A stretch of DNA of 64,000 nt from Obelidium mucronatum (Eukaryota; Chytridiomycota; Chytridiomycetes; Chytridiales; Chytriomycetaceae): the NCBI GenBank assembly GCA_025765595.1, contig JAIVFH010000029.1, forward strand, positions 1 through 64,000. Reading direction: 5' to 3'. Made by a program: the position numbers and the translations under genes. Under the pieces are notes generated by a model, which worked only from the letters and a program-made list of their open reading frames with translations, was not told where the DNA came from and made no database searches. Below, piece after piece: positions 38,065-56,079 of the stretch (its first letter is position 1; every line of letters begins with the position of its first letter).

Positions 38065-39837
<1,773 letters not shown>

Positions 39838-39918
39838 GTGTGTGTGACCGTAATTCAGTTGTTTTTGCTAATATTACTTCCACACCCAAAGCCAAACTTG
39901 CGTTTGTCGGAACAGACC

Positions 39919-39950
39919 GTGGGAATTGCGCAATGCCGCACGGTTGCACG
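39919..39950. promoter_or_regulatory. Conserved upstream block of MET17 copy 1 with ATTGCGCAAT palindrome
   Basis: A 32-bp block that differs by one base from the block upstream of copy 2 (41815-41846). It contains the perfect 10-bp palindrome ATTGCGCAAT at 39925-39934, followed by CGCACGGTTGCACG. The palindrome lies about 88 bp upstream of the ATG at 39837. This is the classical C/EBP-type bZIP site; in fungi sulfur genes are regulated by bZIP factors (Cys3/MetR), though with a different consensus. Confidence 0.7.
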
Positions 39951-40129
39951 CTTTTTTGCTTGGTCAGCTTTGAATTTTTTCACACTTCCAAGATCTTTGG
40001 AGATTTCTTTGTGTTACTGTTACACAGAACTTCAAGACAAAGAAAACAATGATACAAAACTGGTTCGAGAAAAAGCGTTTTCTTTATTGTTTGAGTATTG
40101 CAAATTGAAAAAAAAAAATGAACAAGATT

Positions 40130-41750
<1,621 letters not shown>

Positions 41751-41814
41751 ATTCGGTAGTAGTTTTTCTGTTGAAGTTTACAGAGCTATTACTTAGTTTC
41801 TGTCGGAAGAAGGC

Positions 41815-41846
41815 GTGGGAATTGCGCAATGTCGCACGGTTGCACG
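41815..41846. promoter_or_regulatory. Conserved upstream block of MET17 copy 2 with ATTGCGCAAT palindrome
   Basis: Matches the copy 1 block in 31 of 32 bases (T for C after the palindrome). ATTGCGCAAT is at 41821-41830, about 71 bp upstream of the ATG at 41750. The block lies in the short gap (about 150 bp) between this gene and the 3' end of DcpS, while the surrounding bases are not alike between copies, so it is conserved against a diverged background. Confidence 0.72.
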
Positions 41847-41898
41847 GCCCTAAAATCATATTGTTACACACAGGGCTTGATGATACCTTTATTCTTAA

Positions 41899-42917
41899 TC
41901 ATTCAATTTTCAAGATAGGAACGAGTTCGTGTGTTTGCCCCAGAAAATAGGTCATTGTGCGGCGTGCATAAAAGTCGCCATCCAATTTCAGAGAATCGAT
42001 TACATCTTCCAACAAATGCGCCTGTCCAGCCGCCATACCCCCAGTCGCTTCCATTTGTAAATTCACTACGTGAATATGGAAATGATAGTACGATGGCTGA
42101 TAATGAACAAACAGTCTCACCCCATCTTTTCCAAGCCCATACTTTTCCAAAAGCAGAGACTCAACAACCGCTTTGATGTGCTCCAAATATGGAACATCAC
42201 TACCCCTCAAGTCTCGCAGACTTTTCAAACGCGACCCGTCATTCGTAATCACAAGCCAGTACAGATTCGCAACTGTGGTTCGATCCCACTTGCTGTCAGG
42301 GAGCACCACAAATCCACAACCCGTTTCGTTCCTTCCGTCTTCAAAATGGATAATGTCTTCAACTTCCGCCTCCTTCTTTACGATTTTGTTTATCCACGAC
42401 GTTCGAGAGGCGGGAATGGAATCAATCCACGGTTTCACTCTCTCCAAATACAGTTGTGGTGTTTCAATGACTTTAATAAGCGGCACACTCATATATTTCC
42501 GGATGTGTGTAATGGTGCATGGATGGATGAATTGGATCTTGTGTGTAGAAGAGAAATGGGCGAGAAAGCGGAAGTAAACATCGTTTGCTGCAATGGAGGA
42601 TGTTTGCGCATCAAATGGTGCTGACGAAATGAGGCTATGGTCGCCAGCGGCATATGCCGATTTTTCAGCTTGTGCGATAGTGAACGCTGACGGAGTTTTG
42701 GCGAGAGCTTCGGAGCAGAACTGGAGAAGATAGGCTTGGGTTTTCGCGAGCGAGACCAACGTCAAACGCGCTGGTTTCATCTAAGCAAGGCAAGTTGGAT
42801 ATTGGACAGTAAAAAATCATCATGTTTTTCACCTGTGGACAGAGAGGTCAGAAGAAGAGAAGTACTTTTGTTTGATGTCGATTCATTGAGCACACACAAG
42901 AAGCGAAGATGTTCCAT
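41899..42917 (-). CDS. Scavenger mRNA decapping enzyme DcpS
   Basis: HIT-superfamily pyrophosphatase that hydrolyses cap dinucleotides after 3'-5' mRNA decay. The C-terminal domain shows LPDSKWDRTTVANLYWLVIT, LKSLRDLRGSDVPYLEHI and the HIT motif HYQPSYYHFHIHVVNL (H-x-H-x-H). GQAHLLEDVIDSLKLDGDFY and RRTMTYFLG follow. The main exon runs 42780-41899 with an intact frame. A likely first exon starts at ATG 42917 (MEHLRFLCVLNESTSNKSTS), fitting the family N-terminus; its splice phase to the main exon is not resolved, so an indel or other acceptor is possible. It lies between MET17 copies 2 and 3. Confidence 0.9.
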
Positions 42918-43002
42918 TTCTACAAGTATTTATATATAGTAATATATAATAATGTAAATGTAAGTTTATAATTTCGTTACTTTATTTACTTTGCTTCCAT
43001 CA

Positions 43003-44645
<1,643 letters not shown>

Positions 44646-44698: not shown

Positions 44699-47600
44699 TT
44701 AATTCAGTCCTTCAAAACACTTCAATGTTGCGGCTGTAATGTCTTGGATAGCGCCGTCTGCAAGCACCCGTTTCACACGGTTCGTCAGACCAAAGTACTT
44801 AACAACAGGCATTGAAGCATTCGCAAATGTTTCTAATCTCTTTTTGATACTTTCCAAGTTGTCATCAGCTCTTCCACTTGTTTCCCCTCTTTTAAGAAGA
44901 CGCTGCGTTAGCGTTTCATTTGGTGCATCGAAGAACAGAACAAATTTACAATGGCCAATGGTACTTTCGAACTAATTTTTGGCTGGTTTAATCCGAGAGA
45001 CATGAAGTTTTGGTTTATACCTCAATTGCCTGCTCCATTGTTCGTGGAAATCCGTCTATCAGATAGCCAGGAGCAGAGTCCTTGGCCAAATGCATAGCAT
45101 CCACCAACAGTCTCAAAGTTATCTCCAATGGTACCATTTTTCCTTCCTTCATAATTTCCTCCAGTTGTGCACCCAACGGAGTGCCACGCTTAACTTCATC
45201 TCGCAGGAGATCTCCAGTCGATAAATGAGCATAATTCAACGACTCAACAAGTTTATCGCATTGTGTTCCTTATAAAATGGGGGTTTCAGTTTGGGGAAAC
45301 TCAAAAAATGAGAAACAAACCTTTTCCACTTCCTGGGCCACCCAAAACAAAAACGATATTAGATCCTTCAAAGGGAAGTTCTTTGATAGTTTTAGAAGAG
45401 AGTAAGCCGTCTTTCACCGTTTGATAAACTTCATCAACTGTTCCGGTACTTTCAATCCTCATTACTCTGTCTTCAAATAGGCTGACGACGGGCATACTTT
45501 CCTCCTCAAACGTCTTGAATCTTTTACGAATCGTTTCAATATTGTCATCTGCTCTTCCAGAAGTCTTTCCCCGCTCTAGCAATCTGCTCTCTAGCACTGG
45601 TAACGGACAGTTGAAGAACAAAACTTTTTTCGCTGGACATATTGTCTTCTCAAACTCTAATGCTTGATCACGCGCGCGAGGAAAGCCATCAATGAGGAAG
45701 CCAGGGGTATTGAGATTTTCCCAAATGGCAGATTTCAACAATCCGAGAATGATACTCATGGGAACAATTTTCCCTTCTTTCATCAAATCCCCACACTTTT
45801 TACCGATTTCTGATCCTTTATCGAGCTCGGCTCGCAAGAGATCACCAGTCGACAGATGGGTCAGGTGAAATTCTTTTGCAAGGCGGACGCATTGCGTGCC
45901 TTTCCCAGATCCAGGCCCTCCCAAAACAAATATTATATTCGGATCAGACCTTACAATACCTTCACCTATCAAGGAAGTTTTTACGTCAGTATAGACCTGG
46001 TCGACTGTCCCAGTGCTTTCGATTTTGAGAACTCTGCCGCCAAAATGCCCAACCACTGGCAAACTTTCGTTCTGGAAAGTTTGAAATCTCTTTCTAATGG
46101 TATCAATATTATCGTCTGCTCTTCCAGACGTCTTTCCTCTTTCAATTAGACGTGCTTCCAATGTTTCCAACGGGCAGTTGAAAAAGAGTACTTTCTTGGC
46201 AGGACAAATGGTTCTTTCAAACTCAATGGCTTGATCCATTGCTCTTGGGAATCCGTCAATCAAGAATCCAGGTGTACTTTCAGAACTGTTGGAAATCGCA
46301 GACTTCAAAAGGCCAAGAATGATTGCCATTGGAACAATTTTTCCCTCTTTCATAAGATCGCCGCATTTTTTCCCAATGTCAGAGCCTTTATCGAGCTCTG
46401 CTCGAAGTAGATCCCCCGTTGAAAGATGTGTGAGACGAAATTCTTTTGCCAATCGTACGCATTGTGTCCCCTTTCCGCTACCTGGACCCCCGAGGACAAA
46501 CACAATATTTGGATCTGGTTTAATGGTTCCATCAGAAAGAAGTCCTTTTTTCAAGTCGGCATAGACCTGGTCCACCGTTCCTGTGCTTTCAATTTTCAAG
46601 ACTCTTGATCCAAAGTGACCAACAACTGGCATGCTTTCCTCTTGGAAAGTCTTGAATCTTTTTCTAATGGTTTCGATATTGTCGTCCGCACGGCCTGATG
46701 TCTTTCCCCGTTCAAGAAGTCGTGCCTCCAAGGTATCAAGAGGACAATTGAAAAATAGGACTTTTTTTGCAGGGAAAATAGTTTTCTCGAATTCAATTGC
46801 TTGGTCCATGGCTCTTGGGAATCCATCAATCAAGAAACCAGGGGTGTTTTCAGGGCTATTGTTGATGGCAGCCTTTAAAAGGCCAAGAATTATGTCCATG
46901 GGGACAATCTTTCCCTCTTTCATCAAGTTTCCACATTTTTTACCAATATCGGATCCCTTGTCAAGCTCGGCGCGCAAAAGATCTCCAGTCGACAAGTGAG
47001 TCAATCTGTATTCTTTAGCAAGACGGGCACATTGCGTTCCCTTTCCGGACCCAGGACCGCCAAGCACAAAAATGATATTTGGTATTGGTTTAATTACTCC
47101 CTCAGACAGAAGTCCGCGCTTGAGATCTGAATAAACTTGGTCCACAGTCCCAGTGCTTTCGATTTTCAAAACACGTGGTCCAAAATGGCCAACTACTGGC
47201 ATACTTTCCTCTTGAAACGTTTTAAAGCGCTTTCTGATAGTATCAATGTTGTCGTCGGCACGCCCAGACGTTTTTCCTCTCTCAATTAATCTTTTTTCCA
47301 GTGTATCAAGAGGGCAGTTGAAAAATAGAACTTTCTTGGCAGGGAATATAGTTTTTTCAAATTCAATTGCCTGGTTCATGGCTCTAGGGAATCCATCGAT
47401 TAAGAATCCAGGAGTGCTCTCTGGACTCTGTTCAATCGCATTCTTCAAGAGACCTAGTATGACATCCATTGGAACAATCTTGCCCTCCTTCATCAAGTCT
47501 CCACATTTTTTCCCAATGTCGGAACCCTTCTGCAGTTCAGCACGAAGTAAATCTCCCGTGGACAAGTGAGTGAGATTGAATTCCTTTGCCAGTCGTTCGC

Positions 47601-50600
47601 ATTGTGTGCCTTTTCCGCTTCCGGGTCCTCCAAGTACAAATATAATGTTTGGAATTGGTTTCACGACTCCTTCAGAAATCAAGTTCTGCTTTAGATCAGC
47701 GTACACTTGATCCACTGTCCCCGTGCTTTCAATCTTCAAAACCCGTTTCCCAAAGTGACCTACCACAGGCATACTTTCTTGTTGGAATGTCTTGAATCGT
47801 TTTCTGATTGTTTCGATATTATCGTCAGCTCGCCCTGACGTCTTGCCGCGTTCTATTAGCCGCTTTTCCAGGATATCCAAAGGGCAATTGAAGAAGAGGA
47901 CTTTTTTGGCAGGAAAAATAGTCTTTTCAAACTCAATAGCTTGATCCATGGCCCGTGGAAATCCGTCAATAAGGAACCCTGGAGTATTTCCAGCGGTGCC
48001 TTCAATGGCAGTTTTCAACAAGCCCAGAATCGTTTCCATTGGAACAATCTTTCCTTCCTTCATCAAATCACCGCACCTTTTCCCAATTTCTGAACCTTTT
48101 TGAAGCTCTGCACGCAATAAATCGCCCGTTGACAAATGAGTTAAGTTAAATTCCTTTGCCAAACGTTCACATTGCGTTCCCTTTCCAGAGCCAGGTCCTC
48201 CCAACACAAATATAATATTGGGATCCGGTTTTACAATCCCTTCTGCAATCAAATTACGCTTCACATTCGTGTATACTTCATTCACAGTCCCTGTACTCTC
48301 AATTTTCATGACTCGACTTCCAAAGTGGCCTACAACCGGCATACTCTCTTCTTGGAAAGTTTTGAAACGTTTACGAATCGTTTCAATATTATCATCGGCC
48401 CTTCCGGATGTTTTTCCACGCTCAAGAAGCCTCGCTTCGAGAGTTGGGAGTGGGCAGTTAAAAAATAAGACTTTCTTGGCAGGACAGATTGTCTTTTCAA
48501 ACTCAATAGCTTGATCCATTGCTCTTGGAAATCCGTCAATAAGGAAACCAGGGGTATCAGTAGTGTTTTCGATTGCAGTTTTGAGAAGCCCGAGAATAAT
48601 GTCCATTGGAACGATTTTACCTTCCTTCATCAAGTTGCCGCACTTTTTACCAATTTCAGATCCCTTGTCCAACTCGGCACGTAACAAATCTCCCGTAGAT
48701 AAGTGAGTCAATCTGAATTCTTTGGCAAGTCGCTCGCACTGGGTTCCTTTTCCGCTACCGGGCCCACCAAGTACAAAGATCAAGTTTGGAATCGGTTTCA
48801 AAACCCCTTCTGAAACGAGTGAATTGCGGACGGTATTGTAGACTTGATCAATCGTTCCTGTGCTCTCGATACGTAAAACTCTTGAACCGAAATGACCAAC
48901 GACTGGCATACTCTCTTCTTGGAACGTTTTGAATCGTTTTCTGATTGTATCAATGTTGTCGTCGGCCCGACCCGAGGTTTTTCCTCTTTCGAGGAGACGA
49001 GCTTCAAGTATGTTGAGGGGGCAGTTGAAGAAGAGGACCTTGTTGGCTGGACAAATCGTTTTTTCAAACTCGATTGCTTGATGCATTGCTCGTGGGAATC
49101 CATCAATCAAGAATCCGGGTGTGTTTTGGTTTGCCTCAATTGCTGACTTCAAAAGACCCAAAATCACTCCCTGCATTTTCAAGTTTAGTATTTTGTTTTG
49201 AATAGTGTTTCTTCTGAATTTTAAGCACGTCATATTTACCATGGGAACTATTTTTCCTTCCTTCATCAAGTCCGCGCATTGTTTGCCAATTGCTGACTTC
49301 TTTTCAACTTCAGCACGCAGCAGGTCGCCAGTTGATAGGTGCGTCAAGCTAAACTCCTTGGCTAATCTGACGCATTGAGTGCCTTTGCCGGACCCAGGGC
49401 CTCCAAGAACCATAATAATGTTGGGATAACCTCTTTCAACAAAATGAACTCGAGTGTTCTTGTACACAACGTCAGGAGGTGCCACTGACGAGATCTTGAC
49501 GCATTTCCCAATTTTATCGTAATGATTGATAACTGGCATACTCGTTTCAATAAACGTCTTGAATCGTTTCTTGATGGTCCCAATATTGTCATCGGCACGA
49601 CCACTTGTTTCCCCTCGTTTCAACAACCGCTGCTCGAGCACGTTTTCTGGGGCATCAAACATCAGCACAAATTTGCATTGTGCGATAGTATCCTCAAATG
49701 CGAGAGCTTGGTCAAGAGCTCGAGGGAATCCGTCAATCAAAAACCCTGAAGCTTCTCCAGCTTTTTCCATCGCTTCTTTGAGTAAGCCCAAGGTCACACT
49801 CATTGGTACTATTTTTCCTTCCTTCATAATCGCGTCGAGTTCTTTTGCTCTTGCTGAACCTGTGGCTACTTCTGCGCGTAGCAAGTCGCCGGCAGATAGG
49901 TGGTTATAGTTGAATTCTTTGGCGATTCTCTCGCATTGTGTTCCTTTTCCACATCCCGGACCACTGGAGTAGGAAAAGTTTCATTACCAATTTTTAAGTA
50001 GTTGCGGGAAAAAGATTACCCAAGAACAAAGACGATATTCTTCCAAGCCTTCCCACGGATTCCAGCTCCCGCATTCGACACTGGTCTTGATTTAGTAGCA
50101 GCAGAGCCTATTGGAGGAAGCGCTCCCGCTTTTCCCAGGTTCAAGTCAACAATCTGTTGCCGCGTTGTTTGATACACTTTCTCAATCGGGGCGGTGCTGT
50201 CCACCAAAATCGCCCGCCCATCTTTTTTAAAGTACTCAATCACAGGCATGCTTTGCTCTTGGAAAGTTTTGAAAGCGCTTTTTAATGGTATCAATGTTAT
50301 CGTCGGCGCGACCCGAGGTTTTCCCACGTTCCAGAAGACGGGCTTCGAGAACTGGGAGTGGACAGTTGAAGCAAAGAACGGTTCTGCATTTCCCGATCGT
50401 GGCTTCGAATTCAAGGGCTTGATCCATTGCTCGTGGGAAGCCGTCTGTTTGTTTTTTTTTCATAGTATGAATATAACGCTGTTGTTTTAATTTTAATGGA
50501 ACGCAAGTCCAAACCAATCAAGAATCCTGGCGTGTCCATATTTTCACTTATAGCCGTCTTTAAAAGTCCAAGGATGATTCCCTGCACACATTAAAAAAAG

Positions 50601-51348
50601 TTAAGCAGGAGGAAAGAAGGAAAAAAATCTGTTTAAATCCAAATACCATGGGTACGATTTTTCCTTCCTTCATGAGATCTCCGCACTTTTTGCCAATGTC
50701 AGTTCCATTTTCCAGTTCCGCTCGAAGTAAATCTCCGGTAGATAAGTGAGTGAAATGGAAACTCTTTTGCAAGACGCTTCGCATTGTGTTCCTTTTCCTG
50801 AACCCGGTCCCCTTTTGATTTATCACTTAGTGGTACTTTGGTTTTTTTTTTGCTAGTAAAATATTGCTCACCCCAAAACAAATATAATATTAGGATGTCC
50901 AACAACAGGAACGCTGCTATTGCCAACCCCATTCAAAGCCGGAAGTACCACTTTCCCTTTTGGAGCATCCACAATTTTGGCATTTGTAGCAAGCCTCAAC
51001 GCACGCTGCTTGCGTTTTTCATTATTTTCCTGATCTGTTGAAGGAATAAACGCGTCCCAATGAACACGGTTTGATTTTCGGTGTCTGCTGACTGATTGGG
51101 TTTCTGCTAGCTTCTTTGAGGCGCTTCACACAGTCCTCAATGTATCCAAGTGGGTCATCAGGCTGTTCATATACTAGACCGGTCATAATACTCTGTTTTT
51201 TGTTGTTGTTGTTGATTTCGAATGTTTCAAGGATAGTGTTCCATTTCACTGAGGGTCGCAAACTCACCTCCATTATGAGGCTGATATCTTTTCGTTCAAA
51301 GTACGCTTTGGCTCCCTCCTGCATGGCTCCTGAAGAAGGGGTACTCAT
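44699..51348 (-). CDS. Giant AK5-like adenylate kinase with ten kinase domains
   Basis: Adenylate kinase interconverts ATP, ADP and AMP. Multi-domain forms occur in cilia and flagella. ATG 51348 gives MSTPSSGAMQEGAKAYFERK; together with YEQPDDPLGYIEDCVKRLKE this matches the N-terminal docking region of AK5. Ten kinase domains follow, each with a P-loop (GGPGSGKGTQC; GGPGCGKG in domain 2), HLSTGDLLRAE, GFLIDGFPRAMDQAIEFE, and a short LID (RGKTSGRADDN, or RGETSGRADDN in domains 2 and 10). Domains are about 190 residues, so the protein is about 2,050-2,100 residues. Domains 2-9 lie in one almost uninterrupted 4.5-kb exon (one short in-frame intron near 49,175-49,245). Frame breaks occur only in domain 1 (near 50,270 and 50,760). 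The last domain is split by two introns and ends CFEGLN at 44699. Confidence 0.93.
45320..50870 (-). repeat. Ten-fold tandem repeat of the adenylate kinase module (about 570-590 bp period)
   Basis: P-loop coding sequences lie near 50,790-50,870 (D1, split by an intron), 49,943-50,034 (D2, split), 49,395 (D3), 48,760 (D4), 48,190 (D5), 47,625 (D6), 47,055 (D7), 46,485 (D8), 45,910 (D9) and 45,333 (D10). D3-D9 share the linker pattern VGHFG-RV-KIESTGTVDQVY and are more alike than D1, D2 or D10. Confidence 0.9.
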
Positions 51349-53574: not shown

Positions 53575-54705
53575 ATGACAGCAACAACAACCAAGGCCGT
53601 GGTTATCAAAGCCGCCCGAGAAGCTCAAATCGAAACTGTTTCGACGCCAAAACTCCAAGATGACGCCATTTTAGTCCAAACCAAAGCTGTGGCCCTGAAC
53701 CCTACTGACTGGAAGCACATTGACTTCCTCGCCTCCCCTGGTGCCCGCGTTGGGTGTGACTATTCTGGAGTTGTTCTGGAGGTAACGTATTCTTTTAAAC
53801 ATTTTCAACAATGCCATTAAGCTGACGACCTTCTTTTGTCATAGGTGGGAAGCAACGTCACCAACGGACTCAAGAAGGGTGACAGAGTGTGGGGTCTTGT
53901 CCACGGGTCGAATGCAGTTAATCACGAAGATGGTGGATTCGCCGATATCATCAGTGCTCGTGCCGCCATCCAGAGCAAGATTCCAGAAAATCTCTCGTTT
54001 GAAGAAGCCGCTACTCTTGGTGTGGGAATCTTTACTGTCGGTCAAGGACTCTATCAGTCGCTGGGTCTGCCACTTCCTTCAACAACGCAACCAGTAACTG
54101 CAACGGACAAGATTATTCTGATTTACGGCGGCTCTACCGCGACTGGTGCCCTGGCCATTCAGTTTGCCAAACTCTCTGGATTCCACGTCGTTACTACAGC
54201 TTCCCCAAGAAACTTTGAATATCTCACTGCTCTTGGAGCCGACAAAGTCTTTGACTACAACTCACCAACAGTTGCTGCCGATATTCGTGCATACTCCAAG
54301 GACTCCATCAAGCACGTGTTCGACTGTGTTTCTGAAGGGAGCTCTCTTCCTATTTCTGCTGGCGCCATTTCGCCTGAAGGCGGGCTTTATTCTGCATTGC
54401 TCGGGGTGGACAAGGCTGTGATCACGGCAATTAATCCCAATATCGTCATCAAGAATACTCTTGCTTATACTGCCATTGGCCGGGGGTTCAATTTTCGGGG
54501 ACAAGAGACACCAGCTAAACCCGAGGATTTTGAATTTGCAAGAGAGTTTGCAGTTTTGAGCAACACACTGCTGGGGCAAGGAAAGGTGAAAGTACACACT
54601 CCTTCAGTGAATGAGCAGGGATCGGGTTTGGAAGGTGTGTTGAAAGGATTGGATTTGTTGAGGAACGGAAAAGTCAGTGGAAAGAAGTTGGTTTATACTC
54701 TGTAG
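53575..54705 (+). CDS. Medium-chain dehydrogenase/reductase (enoyl-reductase-like), copy A
   Basis: Zinc-independent MDR oxidoreductase of the fungal ToxD/trans-enoyl reductase type. ATG 53575; exon 1 encodes KAVVIKAAREAQIETVSTPK, ALNPTDWKHIDF and GARVGCDYSGVVLE. One intron (53,782-53,844) precedes VGSNVTNGLKKGDRVWGLVH. The cofactor site is IYGGSTATGALAIQFAKLSG with TTASPRNFEYL for NADPH phosphate contact. The end KVSGKKLVYTL is typical. The frame is intact. Copy B follows 243 bp downstream. The substrate is unknown. Confidence 0.92.
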
Positions 54706-54948
54706 TTCCCGGAGTTTATTTGAAATTGCTGACTCATAGTTTGATGGTTGTTCCCAATGCAAACTTGCATGCCCCCCCTGTCCCATAGTCCCGAAAAAAT
54801 CGAATAATCAATATAGTTTCATGATTTCAAAGCATTTTGCGATTTCGAATAAGTTTCACGTAAATTTCAAATAAGAAAAAAATGTCTATAAATAACGGGA
54901 TTCAAGCAACCCTGGTTACTAAAAAAAGAAAACAAATCTGAAATCCAA

Positions 54949-56079
54949 ATGACAGCAGCAACAACCAAGGCCGTGGTTATCAAAGCCGCCAGACAAGCTC
55001 AAATCGAAACTGTTTCGACGCCAAAACTGCAAGATGACGCCATTTTAGTCCAAACCAAGGCTGTCGCCCTGAACCCTACTGACTGGAAGCACATTGACTT
55101 CCTCGCCTCCCCTGGTGCCCGCGTGGGGTGTGACTATTCTGGAGTTGTTCTGGAGGTAACGTATTCTTTTAAACTTTTTCAACAATGCCATTAAGCTAAC
55201 GACCTCCTTTTGTCATAGGTGGGAAGCAAAGTCACCAACGGACTCAAGAAGGGTGACAGGGTGTGGGGTGTTGTCCACGGGTCGAATGCAGTTAATCACG
55301 AAGATGGTGGGTTCGCCGATATCATCACTGCACGTGCTGCCATCCAGAGCAAGATTCCAGAAAACCTCTCGTTTGAAGAAGCCGCTACTCTGGGGGTGGG
55401 AATCTTTACTGTCGGTCAAGGACTGTATCAGTCGCTGGGTCTGCCACTTCCTTCAACAACGCAACCAGTAACCGCAACAGGCAACACTATTCTGATTTAC
55501 GGCGGCTCTACCGCGACTGGCGCCTTGGCAATTCAGTTTGCCAAACTCTCTGGATTCCACGTCGTTACGACTGCTTCCCCAAGAAACTTTGAATACCTCA
55601 CTGCTCTTGGTGCCGACAAAGTCTTTGACTACAACTCACCAACAGTTGCTGCCGATATTCGTGCATACTCCAAGGACTCCATTAAGCACGTGTTCGACTG
55701 TGTTTCTGAAGGCGGCTCATTTGCTATTTCTGCTGCATCCATTTCCCCAGAAGGTGGAGTTTATTCCGCGTTGCTCGGTGTGGACAAGGCTGTTATGACG
55801 GCTATCAATCCCAATATCGTCATCAAGAATACCTTTGCGTATACAGTTATTGGGAAGGCGTATAAGATGGGCGATGCTGAGACGCCAGCTATTCCAGAAG
55901 ACTTTGAATTTGCAAAGTCGTTTGCGGTTCTGAGCAACACATTGTTGGGACAAGGAAAGGTGAAGGTACACACTCCTTCAGTGAACGAACAAGGAACGGG
56001 TTTGGAAGGTGTGTTGAAGGGATTGGATTTGTTGAGGAACGGGAAAGTTAGTGGAAAGAAGTTGGTGTATACTCTTTGA
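54949..56079 (+). CDS. Medium-chain dehydrogenase/reductase (enoyl-reductase-like), copy B
   Basis: Tandem duplicate of copy A with the same length and one intron at the same place (55,156-55,218). The two introns differ at only about four positions. Exon 1 and the cofactor half are almost identical to copy A. Divergence is concentrated in residues around VIGKAYKMGDAETPAIP versus AIGRGFNFRGQETPAKP, likely near the substrate pocket. The frame is intact. Upstream sequence is unlike that of copy A, so regulation may differ. Confidence 0.92.

Follow-up and report, generated by a model that had tools for sequence, protein, structure and literature searches.

AK5 is an adenylate kinase (AK). A passage of PMC8339350 classes it as an R1D2 docking/dimerisation (D/D) protein, placing it with the metazoan D/D proteins and omitting it from those that occur outside Metazoa. 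The human enzyme has two active domains, according to a reference title in PMC10056885. In the mammalian axoneme, AK7, AK8 and AK9 are held on radial spokes via RIIa or DPY30 domains; AK9 itself has four catalytic domains, and the three proteins together supply ten per 96 nm (PMC11779644). FAP42 combines one AK with four guanylate kinase domains (PMC9113940), and sea urchin cilia and sperm flagella contain an AK whose catalytic domain is triplicated (Kinukawa 2007, cited in PMC2680645). The gene described here belongs to Obelidium mucronatum (Chytridiales) and lies in a window of 64,000 nucleotides (the whole stretch of DNA analysed, positions 1 to 64,000 of contig JAIVFH010000029.1). It encodes ten AK modules with complete catalytic motifs, nearly linker-free from module 2 on, behind a D/D helix bundle of the RI type. 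With a probability of about 0.58, this AK5-type array of the zoospore raises the local capacity for 2 ADP <-> ATP + AMP at a flagellar docking site.

Gene structure and adenylate kinase modules

The gene is on the minus strand, with its ATG at 51348 and its stop codon at 44699-44701, which are exactly the limits given in an earlier note on this DNA. Nine exons, placed by splice signs and similarity to relatives, are separated by eight introns and make up about 2,050 codons. Modules 1 to 10 are also called D1 to D10 from the N terminus.

44699..51348, minus strand: whole AK5-type gene, nine exons (gene model, 6,154 exon bases)
51268..51348, minus strand: exon 1, start of the D/D docking domain (gene model and tblastn to Siphonaria P0005 and Podochytrium P0003)
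50872..51192, minus strand: exon 2, remainder of the D/D domain (QPDDP, two prolines in the inter-helix loop), linker and start of module 1
between 51132 and 51068, minus strand: one frame switch in exon 2 (anchor test)
50647..50811, minus strand: exon 3, P-loop and AMP-binding part of module 1
between 50810 and 50757, minus strand: two frame switches in exon 3 (anchor test)
50515..50581, minus strand: exon 4, module 1 (gene model)
50020..50444, minus strand: exon 5, end of module 1, linker and first residues of module 2
between 50331 and 50270, minus strand: one frame switch in exon 5 (anchor test)
49423..49963, minus strand: module D2 from the P-loop onward, 52-59% identical to D3-D10; Ala replaces Thr in SxGDLLR
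48787..49422, minus strand: module D3, interrupted by intron 49239-49171 at the codon that the module 1 intron also occupies
48220..48786, minus strand: module D4
47650..48219, minus strand: module D5
47080..47649, minus strand: module D6
46510..47079, minus strand: module D7
45940..46509, minus strand: module D8
45361..45939, minus strand: module D9
44699..45360, minus strand: module D10 and stop codon, 51-54% identical to D2-D9; introns 45320-45269 and 45020-44972

From D2 to the stop codon the reading is free of stops over 1,697 residues, and modules 2-10 are intact. The uninterrupted frame of 4.5 kb on which the earlier note had relied is present as an open frame from 45301 to 49980, but it includes the in-frame 69-base intron 49239-49171, so that the largest exon has 3,850 bases.

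The ten modules reported in that note are all there. A single-frame scan returns ten HLSxGDLL, ten SGRADDN and eight uninterrupted P-loops, the remaining two P-loops being interrupted by introns. Read exon by exon, 10/10 modules hold the P-loop, SxGDLLR, DGFPR...Q and GRADDN (module 1 in pieces, with X at the frame switches), and all ten likewise carry the set that marks the short-LID AK1 type (P-loop, SxGDLLR, DGFPR...Q, RL..RG and GRxDDN). The residues of these motifs presumably play their usual adenylate kinase roles. The PF00406 profile matches seven nearly full modules and exon-sized pieces of modules 1, 3 and 10, and the best PDB sequence matches of module D6 are the yeast uridylate kinase 1uky and AK1 structures. 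Module D2 carries Ala (49902-49880) where the other nine have Thr in SxGDLLR, a position that presumably influences the choice between AMP and UMP/CMP, and judging by this substitution D2 may take pyrimidine nucleotides. Modules D3-D9 are 78-89% identical to one another in protein, D2 and D10 being more distant from the others, as listed above (module 1 was outside this comparison). Judged with the module profile, D3 to D9 follow each other without any linker residue; a single residue separates D2 from D3, and four separate D9 from D10.

Such a regular array could in principle be an assembly artefact in which a single module was multiplied, and redundancy among other contigs is the one observation in its favour. 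The gene, however, contains no repeated 30-base word, the similarity of D3-D9 goes with synonymous sites that are saturated or nearly so (20 of the 21 pairs have no finite NG86 value, D5-D8 giving 3.74), and the closest long relatives in other genera have 8-10 modules. An assembly stutter is thus ruled out, as the earlier note had held, and the chance of an artefact of this kind is negligible. Since nonsynonymous divergence (dN) between the D3-D9 modules is 0.09-0.20 against this saturated synonymous change, the copies are ancient, with selection acting on every one of them. The genome yielded the ten-module gene a single time.

The docking domain and the frame switches at the 5' end

The N terminus was recognised by profile and by predicted fold. 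A profile of animal and chytrid N-terminal sequences, which align with each other, matches EFCAB10 (5e-6) and, more weakly, FAP385, the RI subunit of protein kinase A (PKA) and AK8, and the predicted fold of an orthologue's N terminus matches the D/D domain of PKA RI-alpha at 1.0 A over 49 residues. It has the R1D2 arrangement of helix I, a loop bounded by two prolines and helix II, and it stands N-terminal to at least two AK1-type modules, as in AK5; exons 1-2 of the window align with the orthologues. Searches of this region with Pfam gave sub-threshold matches only, the best being DUF5586 and Tex55, NCBIfam gave nothing useful, and a homologue search with the first 130 residues as query returned 5 proteins. 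The AK5-like docking region suggested by the earlier note can thus be named a D/D domain, as judged from the profile and the orthologue's modelled fold, and the protein is by its sequence of AK5 type, an assignment on which the module trees bear little with regard to animal AK5, given their short sequences, their poor deep support and the omission of vertebrate AK5. Like AK5, the protein has an R1D2-type D/D domain followed by tandem AK1-type modules with a short LID. The Obelidium protein differs from human AK5 in having ten modules instead of two active domains and, in being fungal, from the metazoan listing of AK5 in PMC8339350; the D/D-AK5 design would thereby extend to fungi.

Four frame switches occur within exons 2, 3 and 5, that is, in the N terminus and module 1. 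Every one of them is +1, and the earlier note did not mention them. They fall within the 1,059 bases of exons 1-5, with none in the remaining 5,095 exon bases, and such clustering would arise under even scatter with a chance of about 0.0009, which marks this stretch as special. A second multi-AK gene of the genome, at 59500-66500 of contig C57 (about 2000-6500 of L017), has two modules with extra stretches between them and ends in a long, coiled-coil-like open frame without a Pfam match. The same anchor test reads three frame switches in it, also all +1.

One explanation of the clustering is decay of the D/D domain and module 1 in Obelidium. The working protein would then be close to the deposited model P0001 (1,689 residues), would lack a docking domain and would have a module count below ten. 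This model, the best database match, begins late in module 1, downstream of the switches. The direction of the switches is nonetheless what insertion-type assembly errors would produce; because all seven are +1, few as they are, insertion errors in a poorly polished stretch fit better than decay. Peptides flanking the switches remain similar to those of Siphonaria and Podochytrium, and the D/D domain is retained in orthologues. The switches are therefore probably assembly insertions and decay is unlikely, even though the other genes of the window, not checked base by base, had long open frames, which weighs against a poorly polished stretch. The reading given here for the D/D domain and module 1 is accordingly provisional.

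Relatives and evolution of the array

A homologue search found 418 proteins, 120 of which are listed, with a length filter that favours long proteins; a module was counted as full at 120 residues or more. At least four full modules are present in 111 of the 120. The earlier note had taken one to three catalytic domains as the known range, a premise that these counts contradict, as does AK9 with its four domains (PMC11779644). The closest chytrid relatives are named 'hypothetical protein': Podochytrium P0003 has nine full modules, Chytriomyces hyalinus P0002 ten and P0004 nine, and Siphonaria P0005, flagged as an unverified contaminant by its source, eight. These four resemble the Obelidium protein in the D/D domain, D1, D2 and the middle array; a D10-type module is present in Podochytrium P0003 and Siphonaria P0005, whereas Chytriomyces modules are absent from the D10 clade. 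Entophlyctis JEL0112 has eight modules (two of them 100% identical in the model) and E. luteolus seven. Shorter models include Rhizoclosmatium P0007 (marked partial) and P0008, with five modules each, Chytridiales sp. JEL 0842 with four and Chytridium lagenaria with three; P0008 and the N-terminal model P0121, whose contigs are equal in length, may be one split gene.

Named non-fungal relatives have 3-6 modules among the matches listed, and metagenome proteins have 12-15. Fifteen each are found in the metagenome or unnamed proteins P0123, P0124 and P0126, the first two of which are perhaps cut, since both are exactly 4,000 residues long. Ten modules therefore make a long array but neither a unique nor a record one, contrary to the singularity implied earlier, and the Obelidium protein is a member of a wider array family that reaches 15. 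P0123 and P0126 (3425 aa) are like it in their long arrays and differ in being fused to AMP-draining enzymes, namely adenosine deaminase in P0123 and a 5'-nucleotidase C-terminal domain in P0126. A crude pattern found no D/D-like stretch in either, and it also missed the one in Piromyces. Further AK arrays (P0049, P0059, P0068, P0080-P0082, P0091 and P0098) occur with PF00334 (nucleoside diphosphate kinase) or PF00149/PF02872 (metallophosphatase/5'-nucleotidase). In the literature on adenylate kinases, mostly without subscription papers, no array of this size was recognised, which is not a claim of absence from print; no Obelidium genome paper was found either.

An IQ-TREE analysis covered 61 modules. 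They came from Obelidium and from eight proteins out of the 22 others in a 139-module tree, leaving out the first module of one Entophlyctis protein and a single module from Rhizoclosmatium. In the smaller tree, D1, D2, D3, D9 and D10 each cluster with the same position of other genera (ultrafast bootstrap, UFBoot, 100, 94, 89, 83 and 77). Some middle modules form clusters by lineage, such as Chytriomyces 5-9 (91) and Rhizoclosmatium 3-5 (86). Others do not: Siphonaria 4 is the partner of Obelidium D5 (100) and Siphonaria 6 that of D8 (99), so that Obelidium and Siphonaria have part of the middle in common. Support is low (21-71) at many nodes of the middle. As far as these sequences tell, the end modules are kept by position across genera and much of the middle expands by lineage. 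Modules 1 and 3 and both modules of the C57 gene have an intron at the same codon, while D4-D9 lie within one intronless exon, which suggests that the middle of the array grew from a copy without the shared intron.

In two Chlamydomonas species there are six modules 92-99% identical to one another, and in the sponge Ephydatia six at 88-99%, pointing to separate recent expansions or to homogenisation. The two Chytriomyces hyalinus proteins differ in module number under one species name, and in P0002 the adjacent modules 6 and 7 share 99% identity, reflecting either a recent duplication or an assembly effect. A broader proposal, more doubtful than probable, is that evolution has arrived at AK arrays several times independently. 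In this view, AK modules following a single docking domain would have been multiplied again and again in flagellated eukaryotes, with tandem copy number setting the dose per axonemal docking site. In Chytridiales the ends would stay fixed and the middle would expand and contract like an accordion, perhaps also among isolates that share a species name; elsewhere the array would be joined to adenosine deaminase or 5'-nucleotidase as a one-chain machine that regenerates ATP and removes AMP.

Proposed role at the flagellum and its alternatives

We infer the docking, location and activity of the array as follows. The D/D bundle would dimerise and hold on to an amphipathic helix in a partner protein of the axoneme or cytoskeleton, by analogy with the D/D domain of AK8 and EFCAB10 in radial spokes. 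Each docked molecule would bring ten AK sites, or twenty as a homodimer, to the dyneins, and these sites would catalyse 2 ADP <-> ATP + AMP, regaining ATP and clearing ADP over the length of a flagellum that ATP enters by diffusion. In long flagella, diffusion is regarded as insufficient on its own for the ATP supply. Repetition would increase the catalytic dose per docking site, and the array, its ends held by position, would lengthen or shorten in the middle through tandem duplication. Among the readings offered in the earlier note, dosage by repetition fits best, and the flagellated (zoospore) setting it assumed agrees with the source, a flagellated chytrid. One docked chain would thus carry ten AK domains, a number that mammals reach per 96 nm through three proteins (PMC11779644); the equality is treated as a coincidence. 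Related chytrids differ in module number, so that a comparison among them could show whether swimming is limited by AK dose. Like the sea urchin sperm flagellar AK, the Obelidium protein has several AK domains; the sea urchin enzyme is set apart, by its description and not by sequence, in having three and a reported flagellar location.

Axonemal AK7, AK8 and AK9, which dock through RIIa or DPY30 domains, resemble the array as proposed here and, in mammals, equal it in their joint number of catalytic domains, but they are separate families. None of them is among the 60 best of 94 PDB sequences matched by module D6, which are AK1, UMP/CMP and other AK types, and Obelidium has AK8 (1.3e-30), AK7 (5.5e-18) and AK9 (8.6e-53) matches on other contigs (L020, L022 and L021). 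The AK9-like locus matches at 9.4e-57 a chain of 1,910 residues labelled CFAP276. With loci for all three present, the array is an addition to the axonemal AK set; that it replaces them was considered and rejected. For each of the AK8, AK9 and AK7 loci there are two contigs (C4/C633, C33/C491 and C2/C521) with equal or nearly equal scores, which suggests uncollapsed haplotypes. The genome also has 22 dynein heavy chain matches on 16 contigs, some of which resemble duplicates, and six radial spoke head matches on two contigs.

Several observations weigh against a flagellar array. AK7, AK8 and AK9 are already there to serve the radial spokes, and the DHC_N2 domain covers cytoplasmic dyneins too. 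RSP3, on which AK8 docks in mammals, gave no candidate in the genome by PF06098, but the control genomes gave none either, so that this is not taken as absence. The four frame switches leave room for a broken D/D domain and module 1 in this strain. Hookworms (Ancylostoma), which are not known to have motile cilia, possess relatives with five full modules, and human AK5 is described as cytosolic and mainly a brain enzyme (PMC10056885). The last two points would suit a soluble, high-dose cytosolic adenylate kinase whose D/D domain merely dimerises or tethers it to a non-flagellar site. This alternative deserves attention but is judged improbable, since the D/D profile and fold best match radial-spoke and PKA docking proteins, all fungal-named proteins among the matches listed were judged zoosporic, and an AK with triplicated domains is used in sea urchin cilia and sperm flagella (cited in PMC2680645).

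The near absence of linkers between modules could also suit a structural filament or ruler, in which tightly joined modules would form a rigid rod of set length along the axoneme and catalysis would be secondary. Module number, however, varies among close relatives (8, 9 and 10), including the two Chytriomyces hyalinus proteins (10 and 9), which disfavours a ruler, and every catalytic motif searched for is retained, so this possibility appears very slight. A three-module AlphaFold2 model from a five-row alignment (pLDDT 65.8, pTM 0.49) was too poor to inform on module packing.

Elsewhere in the window, three tandem genes for pyridoxal phosphate (PLP) enzymes of Cys/Met metabolism (PF01053) lie immediately downstream of the AK gene on the minus strand (38400-44316), and two tandem zinc-binding dehydrogenase genes with equal open frames of 286 residues lie on the plus strand (53845-56076).
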